A stretch of 64,000 nt of DNA from Microbacterium azadirachtae. Its GTDB lineage: Bacteria; Actinomycetota; Actinomycetes; Actinomycetales; Microbacteriaceae. Below are positions 5,120-12,814 of the stretch, piece after piece; the first letter of the stretch is position 1; each line of letters begins with the position of its first letter. The translations under genes were made by a program, and so were the position numbers. The stretch spans positions 1 through 64,000 of the forward strand of contig NZ_JYIT01000085.1 in NCBI RefSeq assembly GCF_000956545.1. Direction: 5' to 3'. The notes under the pieces were generated by a model, which was given only the letters and a program-made list of their open reading frames with translations, searched no databases and had not been told where the DNA came from.

Positions 5120-5254
5120 GATACTTATCTGACGACCCGTTGTCAAGACCCTCTGCACCGTTGAGGACTTGACAAGGGTCTTACTAGTGCCCGAAACGGC
5201 ACAGGCCGATCAAGCCGACAGGCTGAAGGAACACAGGGCGCCCGCGCAGCGCCC
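5120..5254 (+). promoter_or_regulatory. Probable sigA promoter and structured leader
   Basis: The 234 bases between PAC2 and sigA hold a GATACT -10-like hexamer (5120-5125). After it come three inverted repeats: TTGTCAAG/CTTGACAA (5140-5147 with 5168-5175), GTGCC/GGCAC (5187-5191 with 5198-5202) and GGGCGC/GCGCCC (5236-5241 with 5249-5254). A second pairing, AAGACCC (5145-5151) with GGGTCTT (5176-5182), competes with the first stem. No -35 element is convincing. Confidence 0.4.
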
Positions 5255-5270
5255 CGTTGAGAGGCGAGAC

Positions 5271-6512
5271 GTGACGACTGCCACGAAGAAGAACACCCGC
5301 ACGAAGACCGAGGCCACCGAGCCCGAGGAGGTCGCGGCGAACGCCGACGGCACCGCGGAGCAGGCCGCCCCGACGAAGGCGGCGGCGAAGAAGCCGGCTG
5401 CGAAGAAGTCGACCAGGGCGAAGAAGGACGCCGTCGAGGAGACCGCGTCCGAGGACGCGCCCGCCGAGGTCGCCGACGACAGCGACGAGGAGGAGGGCGC
5501 CAAGCCCGCCTTCGCCGAGCCGCTGCCCACCGGAGCCATCCGCATCAGTTCGACGGACGAGGACGATGTCCCCGTCTACTCGACCCAGATCACCGGCGCC
5601 ACCGCCGACCCGGTCAAGGACTACCTCAAGCAGATCGGAAAGGTCGCGCTGCTGAACGCGGCCGAAGAGGTCGAGCTCGCGATGCGGATCGAGGCCGGTC
5701 TGTTCGCCGAGGAGAAGCTGTCGGCGATGTCCGCGGCGGAGAAGACCAGCCAGCTCGGGCTCGACCTGCAGTGGGTCGCCCGTGACGGCCAGCGTGCGAA
5801 GAGCCACCTGCTGGGCGCGAACCTGCGCCTCGTGGTCTCGCTCGCCAAGCGCTACACGGGCCGCGGCATGCAGTTCCTGGATCTGATCCAGGAGGGCAAC
5901 CTCGGTCTCATCCGTGCGGTGGAGAAGTTCGACTACACCAAGGGCTTCAAGTTCTCGACCTATGCGACGTGGTGGATCCGTCAGGCGATCACCCGCGCGA
6001 TGGCCGACCAGGCCCGCACGATCCGCATCCCGGTGCACATGGTCGAGGTCATCAACAAGCTCGCCCGCGTGCAGCGTCAGATGCTGCAGGACCTGGGCCG
6101 CGAGCCCACGCCGGAAGAGCTGAGCCGCGAGCTCGACATGACGCCGGAGAAGGTCATCGAGGTGCAGAAGTACGGGCGTGAGCCCATCTCGCTGCACACG
6201 CCTCTGGGTGAGGACGGAGACAGCGAGTTCGGAGACCTCATCGAGGACACCGAGGCCGTGGTCCCGGCCGACGCGGTCGGCTTCACGATGCTGCAGCGTC
6301 AGCTCGAGCAGCTGCTCGACTCGCTGTCGGAGCGCGAGGCGGGCGTCATCCGCATGCGCTTCGGCCTCGGTGACGGGCAGCCCAAGACGCTCGACCAGAT
6401 CGGCGACACGTTCGGCGTGACCCGCGAGCGGATCCGGCAGATCGAGTCCAAGACGATGGCGAAGCTGCGCCACCCGAGCCGTTCGCAGTCGCTGCGGGAC
6501 TACCTCGAGTGA
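5271..6512 (+). CDS. sigA: Principal RNA polymerase sigma factor (SigA/RpoD/HrdB type)
   Basis: A 413-residue group 1 sigma-70 factor that directs RNA polymerase to housekeeping promoters. A low-complexity Lys/Ala/Glu N-terminus (about 1-100) is followed by region 1.2 ([20 protein letters not shown]), region 2 with the RpoD box ([20 protein letters not shown]) and the -10-recognition helix ([17 protein letters not shown]). Region 3 comes next, then region 4 with the -35 helix-turn-helix ([17 protein letters not shown]). Start GTG 5271 is preceded by GAGAGG at a six-base spacing; an upstream in-frame ATG at 5169 lies within the leader hairpins and has no ribosome site. The stop overlaps the next gene by GTGA. 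Confidence 0.96.
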
Positions 6513-7213
6513 GCGCGGAGGCGAAGCCGAACGACGGCAAGAACCTCGACATCTCCGTCGAGGGCACACGCTGGCTGCGGATCCCGATCCGGACGAAGGT
6601 CGTCATGCCGGGCGACGTGCTCGCCGACGTCGTGAGCGAGTACGCCGCGGGTGAGGTGAAGGAGGGCGACCTTCTCTTCATCACCGAGAAGATCGTCGGC
6701 ATCACGCAGGGGCGCTCGTTCCTGCTCGAGGAGATCCATCCGCGCCGGCTCGCGCACTTCCTGTCGAAGTACGTGACGCGCACGCCCTACGGCATCGGGC
6801 TCGGCATGCCCGAGACCATGGAGATGGCGCTGCGCGAGTGCGGCACCCCGCGCATCCTGCTGGCCGCAGCGGTGTCCGCCGTGACCAAGGCCTTCGGCCG
6901 TCGCGGCGACTTCTACCGGATCGCCGGCGAGAAGGCGCGCGCGATCGACGGGCCGACCGAAGGCACCATGCCGCCCTACGACCGGTCGGTGGTGCTCGGG
7001 CCCGCGCGTCCGCGCGAGGTCGCCCACGAGATGCAGGCGCTGCTCGGCGGCGTCTGCGACGTGGCCGTGGTGGACATCAACGACCTCGGCGGCAACATCC
7101 TCGGATCCACGCTCGACAAAGCCGAGGAGAAGCGGCTCGTCGCGATCCTCAAGGACAATCCGCTCGGCCAGGGCACGGAGTCCACGCCCATGGGCATCAT
7201 CCGCCCGGCCTGA
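6509..7213 (+). CDS. CofE-like (coenzyme F420-0:gamma-glutamyl ligase family) protein
   Basis: A 234-residue protein resembling the CofE/FbiB-N fold, which attaches glutamate to a substrate in a GTP-dependent reaction. Family features are an N-terminal [14 protein letters not shown] stretch, [17 protein letters not shown], and the C-terminal [17 protein letters not shown] region. Start GTG 6509 overlaps the sigA stop by four bases, so it is co-transcribed and probably translationally coupled to sigA. No other F420 biosynthesis gene is nearby. Its neighbours are instead an ATP-grasp protein and two racemase homologues, so a role in another amino-acid ligation, possibly in the cell wall, is a reasonable alternative to F420 synthesis. 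Family assignment is good; substrate is unknown. Confidence 0.75.
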
Positions 7214-7279: not shown

Positions 7280-8302
7280 TCAGAACTTGATCGCGGCCTG
7301 GTAGCGCGGCTTGTGCCCGGTGCGGATGCCCGACACGCTCGGCTTGTTCTCGTAGACGCCGGCGCCCCAGTTGCCCTCCACGAGCACCGGTCCGTCGGGA
7401 CCCACCACGATGTCCCAGCCGACGTACTGGACCTGCGGCACGACGCGGGCCACCTGGTCGACGAACGCCTTGACCTCGTCGATCAGCGGGAGCTGGAAGT
7501 CGGCGATGCGGAAGCCCGAGTCGGGGTGCAGCTCGTGGACGTGTCCGTGCGAGTCGTAGCCGGCGCTCACCGCGTGGCCGTCGTCGTCGAGCATCGTGTA
7601 GAAGCCGCCGAACGACATCTGGTCGCTGACCTCGCCGCGCCCGAACTTCTGCGCCATCGCGAGGATGTGCGTCTTCTCCCCGTCGAAGAACGCGGTCACG
7701 CGCGTGGTGTTGACCGTGCCGGGGCAGACGGCGGCGAGGTCCGGGTGCTGCCGGATGACCTCCTCGACGAGGAGGCGTCCCTTCCCGAGGAGCTCGGCGT
7801 GGAACGCCTCCCAGTCCGTGATGTCGGCGGCGTGGTAGCGGAACACGCCCGATCCGGCCTGGCCCATCGGGGTCTTCACGATCACCGTGCCCTGACGCTG
7901 GACGAAGTCGCGCAGCTCGTCGGCGTTGCCGGGCTTCACGACCATCCACTCACGGCGCAGGAACTCGCTGAACTTCTCGTCGAACTCGATCTTGTCGTGG
8001 AACAGGTGCCGGAAGTCGGGGTGCGCATAGCGCTCCGAGATCTGGTTCGACACCGGGTGCGTCATGTACGTCGCACGCTCCGCGCGGTTCAGGATCGCGA
8101 AGTCGTAGTCGATGTAGTCCTGGAAGCCGACGTTGTGCCGGCCGGCCGACCAGAGCATGTCCACCACGACGGCCGGGACGGCCTTTCCGTGCTGCGCCGA
8201 GGCCTTCTTCGCGCGCTCGATCACCGAGCCGACGTTGATGCGACGGGCGCGCTCGGCGAGATAGCCGAGACGGGACTTGAGGCCGAGGCCGTTCGAGGGC
8301 AT
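7280..8302 (-). CDS. Sugar-transfer-associated ATP-grasp family protein
   Basis: A 340-residue ATP-grasp-fold protein, a class of enzymes that activate a carboxylate with ATP and join it to an amine or similar acceptor. The nucleotide-binding core begins near VIVKTPMGQAGSGVFRY. The metal-binding end is WDIVVGPDGPVLVEGNWGAGV, with the usual Asp, Glu and Asn. It resembles the domain found with sugar-transfer loci; its real substrate is not known. Start ATG 8302 is followed by MPSNGLGLKSRLGYLAERAR. A TAGAAT box on the minus strand (8337-8342) gives a leader of about 30 bases. It diverges from the racemase-like pair with 115 bases between start codons, suggesting shared control. Confidence 0.75.
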   Translation of the reverse strand: MPSNGLGLKSRLGYLAERARRINVGSVIERAKKASAQHGKAVPAVVVDMLWSAGRHNVGFQDYIDYDFAILNRAERATYMTHPVSNQISERYAHPDFRHLFHDKIEFDEKFSEFLRREWMVVKPGNADELRDFVQRQGTVIVKTPMGQAGSGVFRYHAADITDWEAFHAELLGKGRLLVEEVIRQHPDLAAVCPGTVNTTRVTAFFDGEKTHILAMAQKFGRGEVSDQMSFGGFYTMLDDDGHAVSAGYDSHGHVHELHPDSGFRIADFQLPLIDEVKAFVDQVARVVPQVQYVGWDIVVGPDGPVLVEGNWGAGVYENKPSVSGIRTGHKPRYQAAIKF

Positions 8303-8405
8303 GCGTACTCCGGGTCGAGGGTCGTGGAACCGGTCCATTCTAGGCGGCGATGCTCCGAGCCTCCCGGGACGGCCGGTCCCGAAGGGGGTTCGCGCGTCGC
8401 GCCGG

Positions 8406-8417: not shown

Positions 8418-9140
8418 GTGACCGCCCCGCCTCCTGCCTCCCCCTCGCGGAGCGCGATGCTCCGGGCTTTCGTCTCGCGCTCGGCCCTCGCGTCCGGGGC
8501 GGTCCGTGCCGTCGCCGCCGGGGGAGCGGGCATCGCCGACCTCCGCCGCGACGCCTGGGGGCACGGCCTGATCGAGGCCGCCCGTGTCGCGACCGCCGCG
8601 GGTGCGCGCGCCGTGCGGGTGGACGGCGAACCCGAGGTGGCGCTGCTCGCCGCCGAGGGCATCACGGCGACGTGCGACGAGGCCGCGGACCTGGATCCGC
8701 GGCTCCTCTACGGTCTCCCCGATGTGGAGGGCGCGCTCACGGGTGCTCCCGCGATGCGGGTCGTGGGCCGGGTGCTGTCCACGAAGGACATCGCCGCCGG
8801 GGCCGGCGTGTCCTACGGCTACATCCATCGGGCGCCGGTCGACTCACGACTCGCCCTGGTCACGGGCGGCTACGCCCAGGGCGTCGTCCGAGCGCTCGGG
8901 AGCAGCGCGTCGGTCGAGATCGACGGCGTCGTGCACCCGATCGTCGGCCGGATCGCGATGGACGTGTGCGTGGTCGACATCGGCGATGCCGACGTGGAGC
9001 CGTCCGCCGAGGTCACCTACTTCGGGGGCACAGGGCCGCTCGCCGCGGGGCTCGCGCACTGGTCGCAGGTCACGGGAATGACTGCGGGCGAGCTCGTCGC
9101 GGTCGTGGGACAGCGGACGGAGCGCACATGGGTGGCGTGA
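8418..9140 (+). CDS. Shortened alanine-racemase homologue (C-terminal-domain type), lacks PLP lysine
   Basis: A 240-residue fold-type III PLP enzyme relative; normal alanine racemases are about 370 residues. The N-terminal segment aligns with the first strands of the barrel, but the PLP-binding motif (normally VVKAxxYGHG) reads DLRRDAWGHG, so the catalytic Lys is Arg43. Barrel strands after about residue 85 are missing and the chain jumps to the beta-rich C-terminal domain. That domain is intact, with the catalytic-Tyr motif GVSYGY (Tyr133), GYAQGVVRALG and VGRIAMD. By itself it should not racemise amino acids. It overlaps the next gene, a racemase homologue with the opposite defect, by 13 bases, which suggests a two-subunit enzyme. 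A regulatory role is an alternative. Confidence 0.78.
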   Translation: MTAPPPASPSRSAMLRAFVSRSALASGAVRAVAAGGAGIADLRRDAWGHGLIEAARVATAAGARAVRVDGEPEVALLAAEGITATCDEAADLDPRLLYGLPDVEGALTGAPAMRVVGRVLSTKDIAAGAGVSYGYIHRAPVDSRLALVTGGYAQGVVRALGSSASVEIDGVVHPIVGRIAMDVCVVDIGDADVEPSAEVTYFGGTGPLAAGLAHWSQVTGMTAGELVAVVGQRTERTWVA

Positions 9141-10177
9141 CGGGACCGGTGCTGCGGGCCGATGCCACGGTGCTGCGGGCGAACATCGCGGCGGTGACCG
9201 CGCGGGTCGCGCCGGCTGAGCTGATGATCGTCGTGAAGGACGACGGCTACGGCCTCGGCGCCGCCTGGGCTGCGCGGGTCGCTGTCGATGCGGGCGTGCG
9301 CTGGATCGGCAGCTACGACATCCCGACCGCGATCCAGCTGCGCGCCGAGATCGGCGACGGTCCTCGTCTGTTCGCCTGGGTGACGTCGACCGACGACGAG
9401 ATCGCCGCCGCGCTGCACGCCCATGTCGACCTCGGCGTCGGCAGCCTCGACTACCTCGAGCGCGTGATCGTGCAGGCGGACGCCAGCGGATTCCGCGCCC
9501 GGATCCACCTCAAGATCGACACCGGGCTGCACCGCAACGGCCTGTCGGCCGCGGAGTGGGACGAGGGCGTGCGCATCGCGCTCGATGCCCAGCACCGCGG
9601 CATGATCGACCTGGTCGGCGCCTGGAGCCATCTCGCCGAGGCCAGCGACGCGGAGGACGACGCTGCGCAGGCGCGCTTCCTCGCCGCCGTCGCGCGTGCA
9701 GAGGAGCTCGGCGCGGTGCTCCCGCACCAGCACCTGACCGCCTCGGCCGCTACCTGGGAGCGCCCCGAGCTGCGCGGAACGCTCGTACGCGTGGGAGCCT
9801 TCTGCTTCGGCGTGCGCTCTGCGGGCGGTCCGGATCTGCCGGGGATCGCCCCGGCAGCCGAGCTGCTCGCGCCGGTGACGCGCATCGAGGGCGACGTCGC
9901 GGTGATCGCCGTCGGATCGTTCGACGGACTGCCCAGCACCCTCGCCGGGCGAATCAGGGTCGGCACGCCGGCCGGCCCCCGGCCACTGCGCGACATCGGC
10001 ATCGACGAGATGCGGCTCGAGGCCTGGGACAGTGCAGCACCGGGGGACGAGGTGCTGCTTTTCGGGCGCGGCCGCTGCGGCGAGGAGACGCCCACGACCC
10101 TCGCCGAGGCGATCGGCACGGTCGGCGAGGAGATCCTCTGCCGGCTGACGCCCCACGTGCACCGCGAGTACCGCTGA
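9128..10177 (+). CDS. Alanine-racemase homologue lacking the catalytic-tyrosine loop
   Basis: A 349-residue fold-type III PLP protein. The barrel is complete: PLP lysine in MIVVKDDGYGLG (Lys37), HLKIDTGLHRNGL, WSHLAEA, SASAATW-like TASAATW, and the phosphate-binding LVRVGAFCFG. In the C-terminal domain the strand that normally holds the catalytic Tyr (GVSYG) is absent: ELLAPVTRIE runs directly into GDVAVIAVGSFDGLP. The C-terminal end (DEVLLFGRGRCGEE) is normal. It overlaps the preceding shortened homologue by 13 bases. ATG 9128 has GGAG five bases upstream; GTG 9137, overlapping the previous stop by four bases, is an alternative start. Its product and its neighbour carry complementary active-site halves. 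The amino-acid substrate is unknown. Confidence 0.8.
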   Translation: MGGVTGPVLRADATVLRANIAAVTARVAPAELMIVVKDDGYGLGAAWAARVAVDAGVRWIGSYDIPTAIQLRAEIGDGPRLFAWVTSTDDEIAAALHAHVDLGVGSLDYLERVIVQADASGFRARIHLKIDTGLHRNGLSAAEWDEGVRIALDAQHRGMIDLVGAWSHLAEASDAEDDAAQARFLAAVARAEELGAVLPHQHLTASAATWERPELRGTLVRVGAFCFGVRSAGGPDLPGIAPAAELLAPVTRIEGDVAVIAVGSFDGLPSTLAGRIRVGTPAGPRPLRDIGIDEMRLEAWDSAAPGDEVLLFGRGRCGEETPTTLAEAIGTVGEEILCRLTPHVHREYR

Positions 10178-10524: not shown

Positions 10525-10691
10525 CTCGGTGCCTCCTTGGTGTTTCGGGTCCGCTTGAGGTGTGCTCAATACAACCACGCAGAGCTGGGAGTCATGCCCG
10601 AGAGACGGCGTGTTTCGCTCAGCGCGTACGCAGAGGGTCGCAAGCCCGTCACGACAAGGAGTGTCGCCGGATCCGTGTCGGGTCCTCTCGA

Positions 10692-10697
10692 TACGAT
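10692..10697 (+). promoter_or_regulatory. Probable -10 box of the topoisomerase subunit B gene
   Basis: TACGAT ends eight bases before GTG 10706, again suggesting a leaderless message. Confidence 0.5.
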
Positions 10698-10705
10698 GGG
10701 GGATT

Positions 10706-12814
10706 GTGACAGCCGAGTACTCCGCCCATCACCTCCAGGTCCTCGAGGGTCTCGAAGCCGTCCGCAAGCGGCCCGGGATGTACATCGGCTCGAACGGCTC
10801 TCCGGGCCTCATGCACTGCCTGTGGGAGATCATCGACAACGCGGTCGACGAGGCCGTGGCCGGCAACGGCACGCGCATCGATGTCCTGCTCCACGAGGAC
10901 GGCAGCGTCGAGGTGCGCGACCGCGGTCGAGGTGTCCCGGTCGACGTCGAGCCCCGCACGGGACTCACCGGCGTGGAGGTCGTCTACACCAAGCTGCACG
11001 CCGGCGGGAAGTTCGGCGGCGGCTCCTACGCCGCCTCCGGCGGTCTGCACGGCGTCGGCGCTTCCGTCGTCAACGCCCTCTCGGAGCGCCTCGACGTCGA
11101 GGTCGACCGCAACGGCAAGACCTATGCGATGTCGTTCCACCGCGGCGAGCCCGGCACGTTCGCCGACGACGGCGCGCCGCGGGCGGACGCCCCCTTCACG
11201 CCGTTCGAGGACCGCAGCGAGCTGCGCGTGATCGGGAAGGTCGCGAAGGGCGTCACGGGAACCCGCGTGCGCTACTGGGCCGACCGTCAGATCTTCACCA
11301 AGGACGCCGCGTTCCAGCTCCCCGAGCTCGAGACGCGGGCGCGGCAGACCGCCTTCCTGGTGCCGGGGCTGGAGATCGTCGTGCGCGACGAGCGCGGCGC
11401 GGCGGGAACCGCCGAGGACGGCGCCGCGCCGGCGGCGAACGAGACCAGCTACCACTACGAGGGCGGGATCAGCGAGTTCGTCGAGTACCTCGCCACCGAT
11501 GCGCCGGTCACCGACACCTGGCGGCTGCAGGGATCGGGCGGATTCACCGAGACGGTGCCGGTGCTGCAGGCCGACGGGTCGATGAAGGCCACCGAGGTGC
11601 ACCGCGAGTGCGCGGTCGACATCGCGCTGCGGTGGGGCACCGGGTACGAGACGGCACTGCGCTCCTTCGTGAACATCATCTCGACCCCCAAGGGCGGCAC
11701 GCACCAGCAGGGATTCGAGCAGGAGCTCCTGAAGACCCTCCGCGCGCAGGTCGAGCAGAACGCCCGCCGTCTCAAGGTCGGCAATGACAAGCTCGAGAAG
11801 GACGACGTGCTGGCCGGCCTGACCGCCGTGCTCACCGTGACGGTGCCCGAGCCGCAGTTCGAGGGGCAGACCAAGGAGGTGCTCGGCACGCCCGCGGTGC
11901 GCACGATCGTCGCCCAGGTGGTGCGCAAGGCGCTCGGCGAACGGTTCTCGTCGACCAAGCGCGACGACAAGAACCAGGCGTCGATGCTTCTGGACAAGAT
12001 CGTCGCCGAGATGAAGGCCCGCGTCTCGGCGCGCGCCCACAAGGAGACCCAGCGCCGCAAGAACGCGCTGGAGTCCTCGTCCCTCCCGGCCAAGCTCGTC
12101 GACTGCCGCTCCACGGACGTCGCGCAGACCGAGCTGTTCATCGTGGAGGGCGACTCCGCGCTCGGCACCGCCAAGCACGCCCGCACCAGCGAGTACCAGG
12201 CGCTTCTGCCGATCCGGGGCAAGATCCTCAACGTGCAGAAGGCGTCCGTCAGCGACATGCTGTCGAACGTCGAATGCGCCTCGATCATCCAGGTGATCGG
12301 CGCCGGATCCGGCCGCTCGTTCGACCTCTCGACGGCGCGCTACGGCAAGATCATCCTGATGAGCGACGCCGACGTCGACGGCGCGCACATCCGCACGCTG
12401 CTGCTCACCCTGTTCTACCGCTACATGCGGCCGCTCATCGAGGACGGACGGGTCTTCGCCGCCGTGCCGCCCCTGCATCGCGTGATCGTGATGAACCCCG
12501 GATCCAAGCCCAACGAGACGATCTACACCTACAGCGAGGGCGAGCTGCACGCGCTGCTGGCCAAGCTGCGCAAGCAGAACAAGCGCTGGCACGAGCCGAT
12601 CCAGCGGTACAAGGGTCTCGGTGAGATGGATGCGGAGCAGCTGGCGTCGACCACGATGGACCGCTCGGGTCGTCTCCTGCGCCGTGTGCGCATGGAGGAC
12701 GTGGAGGCCGCAGGGCGCGTCTTCGAGCTGCTGATGGGCAATGAGGTCGCGCCGCGTCGCGAGTTCATCATCGACTCCTCGGACCGGCTGGCCCGCGAGG
12801 CCATCGACGCCTGA
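10706..12814 (+). CDS. parE: Type IIA DNA topoisomerase subunit B (topoisomerase IV ParE type)
   Basis: A 702-residue ATPase subunit that works with the A subunit to relax or decatenate DNA. The GHKL ATPase domain shows RKRPGMYIGS, the WEIIDNAVDEA Mg-binding Asn helix, and GGLHGVGASVVNALS. The TOPRIM domain has EGDSALGTAKHAR and DADVDGAHIRTLLL. The C-terminus contains QRYKGLGEMDAEQL. GTG 10706 gives the expected N-terminus (TAEYSAHHLQVLEGLEAVRKR). The chromosomal gyrB is expected near dnaA, outside the window. The probable partner, subunit A, is at 20079-22526, so this is likely the topoisomerase IV set. The stop overlaps the next gene by one base. Confidence 0.93.
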   Translation: MTAEYSAHHLQVLEGLEAVRKRPGMYIGSNGSPGLMHCLWEIIDNAVDEAVAGNGTRIDVLLHEDGSVEVRDRGRGVPVDVEPRTGLTGVEVVYTKLHAGGKFGGGSYAASGGLHGVGASVVNALSERLDVEVDRNGKTYAMSFHRGEPGTFADDGAPRADAPFTPFEDRSELRVIGKVAKGVTGTRVRYWADRQIFTKDAAFQLPELETRARQTAFLVPGLEIVVRDERGAAGTAEDGAAPAANETSYHYEGGISEFVEYLATDAPVTDTWRLQGSGGFTETVPVLQADGSMKATEVHRECAVDIALRWGTGYETALRSFVNIISTPKGGTHQQGFEQELLKTLRAQVEQNARRLKVGNDKLEKDDVLAGLTAVLTVTVPEPQFEGQTKEVLGTPAVRTIVAQVVRKALGERFSSTKRDDKNQASMLLDKIVAEMKARVSARAHKETQRRKNALESSSLPAKLVDCRSTDVAQTELFIVEGDSALGTAKHARTSEYQALLPIRGKILNVQKASVSDMLSNVECASIIQVIGAGSGRSFDLSTARYGKIILMSDADVDGAHIRTLLLTLFYRYMRPLIEDGRVFAAVPPLHRVIVMNPGSKPNETIYTYSEGELHALLAKLRKQNKRWHEPIQRYKGLGEMDAEQLASTTMDRSGRLLRRVRMEDVEAAGRVFELLMGNEVAPRREFIIDSSDRLAREAIDA

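Follow-up and report, generated by a model that had tools for sequence, protein, structure and literature searches.

Reciprocal loss of catalytic residues between two adjacent alanine racemase paralogues of Microbacterium azadirachtae and other Microbacteriaceae

The gene pair at the sigA-parE locus

The window analysed here is a stretch of 64,000 nucleotides from Microbacterium azadirachtae (contig NZ_JYIT01000085.1, positions 1 to 64,000), and the genome that carries it measures 4.04 Mb. Between the genes for a sigma factor and for a topoisomerase/gyrase B-like protein (called parE here), the window holds two overlapping genes, termed A and B, whose products are homologues of alanine racemase (Alr). 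The features of the locus, together with loci of relatives referred to below, are listed in Table 1. Promoter and terminator scans found nothing.

Table 1. Features of the window around genes A and B, and selected loci of relatives
Feature	Position or locus	Strand	Remark
Principal-type sigma factor (sigA)	5169..6512	+	Locus anchor
F420_ligase (CofE-like) family protein	6509..7213	+	murT-gatD position in other genomes
ATP-grasp protein (ATPgrasp_ST)	7283..8305	-	Divergent neighbour; candidate bridge ligase (a guess)
Gene A, putative Tyr-donor subunit	8418..9140	+	Ala racemase C-terminal domain and barrel remnant; PLP Lys replaced by Arg43
Arg43 codon in A	8544..8546	+	PLP-Lys position; from sequence and alignment
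Tyr133 codon in A (GVSYGY)	8814..8816	+	Catalytic Tyr; from sequence and alignment
A/B overlap, 13 bases	9128..9140	+	Stop of A within the start of B
Gene B, putative Lys/PLP subunit	9128..10177	+	Complete barrel; hairpin with the catalytic Tyr missing from the C-terminal domain
Lys37 codon in B	9236..9238	+	PLP Lys; from sequence and alignment
Glu334 codon in B	10127..10129	+	Matches the Tyr354 specificity gate of Geobacillus Alr
Topoisomerase/gyrase B-like protein, called parE	10673..12814	+	Locus anchor
Tandem alr1-alr2 loci	L059, L062, L064-L066, L068, L071, L073, L077, L085, L086, L092, L099
murT-gatD loci, examples	L055:9917-10786; L074:7429-8199		Among L043-L095

Gene A encodes a protein of 240 aa, in which the Pfam domain Ala_racemase_C was recognized at residues 112-237 (91.9 bits); the barrel family gave only a weak match, under the cut-off, at residues 44-86 (E 0.1). 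In the alignment to Alr, Arg43 stands in the context ADLRRDAWGHG. The structure predicted for A as a single chain (mean pLDDT 93.4) was superposed on Alr 6scz_A over 225 of 373 residues (Z 22.5, rmsd 2.1 Å); thus about 150 Alr residues, mostly of the barrel, have no counterpart in A.

Gene B encodes a protein of 349 aa with Ala_racemase_N at residues 15-230 (140.5 bits). Ala_racemase_C starts in B only at profile position 31 (36.4 bits), and the catalytic-Tyr part is missing. The single-chain model of B (pLDDT 95.0) was superposed over its full length on Alr 5fac_B (348 residues, Z 43.1, rmsd 1.8 Å). The closest relatives of B among the database records were found in Microbacterium sp. USTB-Y (84% identity), a MAG (80%) and M. 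azadirachtae (77%).

Both proteins scored below the NCBIfam cut-off of 168 bits for TIGR00492 (alanine racemase, EC 5.1.1.1), A with 80.1 bits and B with 111.6 bits. The fold that defines Alr, a barrel plus a C-terminal domain, is present over the full chain in B and as the C-domain with a partial barrel in A. The further criterion, that PLP Lys and catalytic Tyr lie in one polypeptide, is met by neither, nor by any of the 132 split loci described below. An earlier note, made from the sequence alone, had given the coordinates and residues of A and B, and these held. Its claim that B keeps the whole barrel and lacks the Tyr-containing strand also held, the C-terminal domain being present without the Tyr hairpin, and its claim that A has lost most of the barrel held with a correction: the barrel is not wholly gone, and its first one or two beta/alpha units remain.

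Division of the active site across relatives

Relatives were sought in 199 genomes of the family, which were queried with A and then with alignments of B and of A. The window-type loci read comprised 49 from 24 genera of this sample and 80 from a list of relatives, which almost all bear Microbacterium titles, are the best 80 of at least 590, and may share species with the 199-genome sample; a species missing from this list is therefore not shown to lack the pair. Three further loci of a different kind, the alr-locus pairs of genus g78, were also read. The window-type pair was present in about 60 of the 199 family genomes (hand count). Within the genus, a B-length match at E 1e-105 was obtained in 100 of 119 genomes (hand count, B only), and some of the 19 genomes without one are incomplete assemblies. 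Among 297 genomes of the order, the listed matches outside the family all measured at least 1,098 bases, the length of an intact Alr, versus about 1,010-1,080 bases for B; this list is incomplete.

The chromosome of Microbacterium sufflavum was found to carry two separate A-B pairs (L130, L163). The pair of Frigoribacterium sp. JB110 (L170) clusters with Microbacterium sequences in trees, and a record titled Planococcus sp. APC 4015 (L179) has a Microbacterium-like pair; mislabelling of these two records, or transfer, is conceivable.

The 145 loci retrieved through a match to A or B yielded 289 Alr-type ORFs, which were classified solely by two letters, Lys38 and Tyr270 in the numbering of S. 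lavendulae Alr. Of these ORFs, 130 have the Tyr without the Lys (A), 132 have the Lys without the Tyr (B), 26 carry both letters and one is a fragment. The 26 two-letter ORFs make up 13 tandem loci, and the fragment sits behind an N run in L174; apart from this run, no broken copy of A or B was found among the loci read. As to whether A and B always occur as neighbours, a check that had been proposed for the pair, both lie on one strand in 130 of the 132 split loci, and the two exceptions are at contig ends, the contigs of L048 and L118 stopping before A. The count leaves out the fragmented assemblies G012, G112 and G177; in these three and in G124, likewise fragmented, the halves were not both seen on one contig. 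In a set of relatives compared, the two genes overlap, abut or are about 10 bases apart at most, with starts chosen by script. Because all 132 split loci are alike, save the two in which A would lie past the contig end, the division between A and B exceeds chance.

Lys38 and Tyr270 are fixed by the sorting itself, and the real test lies in the remaining positions. In Alr, the catalytic Lys and Tyr come from different subunits (PMC3485190), and a partner-side set of residues is contributed by the other subunit (PMC4517790); Lys129 and His168 are assigned to the barrel side. The barrel-side residues Tyr42, Arg136, His168 and Arg224 were invariant in all 132 B proteins, Ser/Thr209 was likewise kept in 132, and Lys129 in 131; the same positions in A were mostly deleted or altered. 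The partner-side residues Arg295 and Met318 were invariant in all 130 A proteins, which also had Tyr or Phe at position 289 (130/130), Arg315 (128/130) and Asp319 (124/130, with Asn in the other six). These positions drift in B; the exceptions are position 319, where Asp persists in 47 of 132 proteins, and position 289, where Tyr persists in 19 of 132. The paralogues A and B have thus reciprocally lost essential residues, and the proposal that they carry complementary half sites held in both the 130 of 132 split loci and the conserved positions.

In 10 of 10 comparisons of close relatives, which are not independent of each other, dN/dS was 0.14-0.34 for A and 0.13-0.27 for B. These values are well below 1, and both genes are therefore under purifying selection. 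The possibility that A and B are decaying leftovers of a disused tandem alr would draw support from the other intact alr genes of the window genome; it is practically ruled out by the dN/dS values, by the linkage of the pair in 130 of 132 loci and by the invariant residues across 24 genera.

The size of A varies among the loci read. At the upper end, A of L055 has about 350 aa and a dead barrel (open frame of 348 codons); other A proteins have about 240 aa, and at the lower end the matched part is only 142-153 aa. In the shortest A proteins (L089, L094, L096 and L098), this matched part includes little beyond the C-domain, and VSYG is retained. The open frame limits A to 197 codons in L094 and to 216 in L098; for L089 and L096, which have a longer open frame, the start of A is uncertain.

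Sequence complementarity, linkage, conservation and synteny are shown. We consider an obligate A-B heterodimer with a single active site the likely form of the enzyme; both dimer formation and activity are inferred, with no modelled complex and no assay. The A-B dimer would be built like the Alr dimer, the barrel of B holding PLP on Lys37 and the C-terminal domain of A contributing both Tyr133, as second acid/base, and the remaining partner-side residues. The mirror site, composed of the barrel remnant of A and the C-domain of B, would be dead, which would leave one active site per dimer. The earlier note had proposed such a heterodimer with one complete site, and this is supported by sequence, linkage and conservation, the complex and its activity being inferred; its statement that the coupled genes ensure equal expression rests solely on the overlap and is likewise an inference.

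Two other readings of the pair bear on this heterodimer. In one, A would be a pseudoenzyme with a regulatory or stabilising role, and B would be active by itself, with another residue or water standing in for the Tyr. Regulatory paralogues do exist, such as the trypanosomal AdoMetDC prozyme, and the PLP-binding residues are kept in B; against this reading, which we judge unlikely, the partner-side catalytic positions are kept in A, where a scaffold would not need them, and VSYG survives even in the four shortest A proteins. In the other, A-A or B-B homodimers would perform a different chemistry, with B acting, for example, as a decarboxylase or transaminase. PLP enzymes are promiscuous, and the residues of B suggest PLP binding; the co-occurrence of A with B and the conserved Tyr and Met of A speak against it and make it very improbable.

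The proposed A-B heterodimer shares with Alr, a fold-type III PLP racemase (S. lavendulae 1vfh, S. coelicolor 5fac, M. tuberculosis 1xfc), the fold, the PLP site, the catalytic Lys and Tyr and the cross-subunit layout. Alr differs in being a homodimer with two sites encoded by one gene, whereas A/B has Lys and Tyr in two genes, one predicted site and Glu at the gate. In the deoxyhypusine synthase of trypanosomatids (DHSc/DHSp), a heterodimer of paralogues likewise has one working and one dead site (PMC7581365); it is an unrelated eukaryotic enzyme, and a structure of the complex has been solved for T. brucei but not for A-B. Serine palmitoyltransferase LCB1/LCB2 is a PLP heterodimer of paralogues, one of which lacks the PLP Lys; it differs from A/B in being of fold-type I and without the reciprocal loss of two catalytic bases. 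Strych and Benedik reportedly made mixed dimers of Lys- and Tyr-mutant Alr with complementing half sites in 2002; those dimers were engineered, whereas A/B is a natural gene pair. The earlier note knew of no enzyme built in this way, and in the literature searched, from which subscription journals were largely missing, we found no paper on a natural heterodimeric alanine racemase. Paralogues with a shared active site are thus known in principle, as in deoxyhypusine synthase, and are new for the alanine racemase family as far as searched. If the heterodimer is real, a common family of bacteria would have divided into two parts an enzyme that is essential, a target of antibiotics and a textbook example of a homodimer.

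The gate residue, the second split pair and tandem alr genes

At the position of the Tyr354 gate, the 132 B proteins had Glu in 100, Asp in 28 and Tyr in three, the last being the g78 alr-locus pairs; one (L174) falls in an unread gap. The gate is acidic in 128 of 129 window-type B proteins, the remaining one being the unread gap. None of the 45 standalone Alr sequences read, some of them incomplete, had an acidic gate, and a few had His, Gln or Ala. The lysine and broad-specificity racemases (Lyr/Bar; 4dza, 4dyj) share the fold of A/B and also have the Tyr354 gate substituted (PMC3485190). They differ in that both catalytic residues lie on one chain and the gate is Thr or Ala, so that the Lyr/Bar criterion of a small gate residue is unmet by the Glu or Asp of window-type B. 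In one mutated Alr, charged gate residues lowered Ala racemisation (PMC4517790), and an acidic gate with a basic substrate is, to our knowledge, undocumented. The window genome (G000) contains three more Alr-family genes, each with both Lys and Tyr; its ordinary Alr has the gate motif TIDYEI. Two divergent intact Alr paralogues of this genome (L002, L003) have His (TIEHEI) and Ala (QIAADL) gates.

In all three sampled genomes of g78, an extra split pair was found at the ordinary alr locus. The order of this pair is reversed (three of 130 loci), a Lys half with a Tyr gate preceding a Tyr half in which Thr replaces the PLP Lys. The g78 genomes gave four Ala_racemase_C matches, which are two A and two B, and two strong Alr barrels (at least 180 bits), both belonging to B; the other barrel matches were A remnants or weak (25-66 bits). 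An intact Alr was not found in any of the three sampled genomes, nor was a D-amino-acid transaminase above the cut-off of 277, the best class-IV aminotransferase matches reaching 60.9-63.5 bits. Thus, D-Ala in g78 must, in all likelihood, come from a split racemase unless a bypass exists; this is inferred, activity was not assayed, and given the sub-cut-off aminotransferase and weak barrel matches a bypass remains possible. The TIGR00492 cut-off of 168 bits was passed by the alr-locus Lys half (233.3 bits) and by the window-type B of g78 (191.4 bits), and since the former passes, automatic annotation can hide the split. This alr-locus Lys half, which lacks the Tyr and lies at L102:7653-8762, would receive the annotation of an entire alanine racemase.

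These data bear on the possibility that the heterodimer is real and that its product is D-Ala or D-Ser, the pair serving as a second alanine racemase under cell-wall control. In favour of this reading are the family membership, the partner-side residues of A, which are as in Alr, and the g78 alr-locus pair, for which the Tyr gate and the lack of any intact Alr found make a split Alr for D-Ala likely. Against it stand the Glu or Asp gate in 128 of 129 window-type B proteins (one unread gap) and the finding that G000 and 17 of 17 sampled non-g78 genomes have a full C-domain match outside the pair in a frame of at least 370 aa, the barrel of these frames being read for part only. This alternative remains possible.

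Thirteen loci read, from seven genera, had two intact alr genes in tandem at the ordinary alr locus (Table 1). The gate of the first gene was Tyr in 12 and Trp in one, and that of the second gene was Asp in 11 and Glu in two. The second gene, with its acidic gate, is likely an intact homologue of B.

All trees were quick searches. In one of them, window-type B clustered with the tandem second genes (SH-aLRT 98). A single origin of window-type B was not rejected (AU p 0.148); the free tree places the intact second genes within B, and the Tyr hairpin may have been lost once or more than once. A C-domain tree of 137 columns left unresolved which of the two tandem genes gave rise to A. A clade of B and the g78 Lys half including the tandem second genes was not rejected (p 0.92), and the constrained tree beat the free tree. 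The same clade without the tandem second genes was rejected (p 0.001).

The g78 Lys half is possibly a close outgroup to B, and intact tandem alr genes may represent the ancestral state. As to origin, we propose that alr would have been duplicated in tandem and that reciprocal loss would have followed, the window-type pair keeping the barrel copy in which the Ala-selecting Tyr is replaced by an acidic residue. A separate origin of the g78 pair is favoured also because of its reversed order, different locus and Tyr gate. The split apparently arose twice, the two origins and the evolutionary order being inferred. With intact tandems and partners at several stages of reduction visible, the system is a good test case for the origin of obligate heteromers.

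Cell-wall neighbours and the putative substrate

Synteny derived from a reduced gene set picked by third-position GC placed the pair between the sigma factor and the parE-like gene. Both anchors were present in the region at 43 of the 45 larger window-type loci (23 genera), and L047 and L048 each showed only one of them. A MurT-like ligase and a GatD-like protein were encoded in 31 of the 45 regions and a CofE-like protein in 13, in 10 of these with an ATP-grasp gene; L090 had both sets, and L047 and L097 had neither. MurT_C was absent from 11 of 11 tested CofE-type genomes and present in 15 of 35 overall; it was also absent from five genus genomes with B (locus unread), three without B and one genome of another family. 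CofE appears to take the place of MurT-GatD at the locus. The CofE-like proteins, mostly accompanied by an ATP-grasp protein, are possible cross-bridge ligases.

In other bacteria, MurT-GatD amidates the stem D-Glu. Gly-D-Glu is characteristic of type B walls, with D-Ala-D-Dab (PMC4156110). The type-B bridge starts at the stem D-Glu. The glutaminase Cys was kept in none of 45 rows of family GatD-like proteins, which have G, A, T or S (some genes counted twice); an outgroup GatD-like protein, from another family of the order (L211), retains the catalytic Cys. In S. aureus GatD, the C94G mutation abolished amidation that depends on glutamine, whereas free ammonia at pH 8.5 could still be used (PMC3266927), and therefore the loss of Cys in the family is no proof that amidation has ended. 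The Cys-less MurT-GatD of the family could perhaps be a non-glutaminase ligase that starts the type-B bridge.

The Glu or Asp gate in 128 of 129 window-type B proteins and the adjacent cell-wall ligase genes make it likely that the window pair is not an alanine racemase, its activity being inferred. Ala, Orn, Lys, Ser and Glu had been named as substrates worth testing; this list can be narrowed, a larger and probably basic amino acid being a better candidate than Ala because an ordinary Alr lies elsewhere in the window genome and the gate of B is acidic. For a basic substrate of the window-type pair, which is inferred from one gate residue and the neighbours, we see the chances as evenly balanced. 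Under this hypothesis, the sigA-parE locus would be a bridge-building locus and the racemase the source of its D-diamino acid, an inference unchecked against L-Lys species. The product would be the D-basic residue of the type-B peptidoglycan cross-bridge, most likely ornithine, and Lys or 2,4-diaminobutyrate in other genera. If this is true, the pair would provide a candidate enzyme for the synthesis of the D-diamino acid found in type-B walls; in the literature searched, in which subscription journals were largely missing, no paper on racemases of Microbacteriaceae walls was found.

D-diamino acids are common in Microbacteriaceae. Against a D-diamino role, about 139 of the 199 family genomes lack the window-type pair (hand count). 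The wall of Rhodoluna lacicola contains D-Dab (PMC4156110); G010, which may be a Rhodoluna (a guess), gave a single match, and a single ordinary Alr, with Tyr at the gate, is present in each of its genus-mates, G092 and G154. A Rhodoluna without the pair would, possibly, speak against the pair as the only D-diamino route.

A bolder joint reading would be that a two-gene heterodimeric racemase evolved at least two times from one type of tandem alr duplication with opposite outcomes, an acidic-gate barrel at sigA-parE for D-ornithine, D-Lys or D-Dab and an Ala-type barrel at the g78 alr locus as sole alanine racemase; on balance, we lean slightly against it.

The walls of Microbacterium contain D-Orn, L-Lys or Dab, depending on the species, with L-Lys in the M. 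imperiale clade, M. gubbeenense and M. enclense (PMC10757982). M. galbinum and M. sufflavum, the walls of which contain D-Orn (PMC10757982), both carry B.
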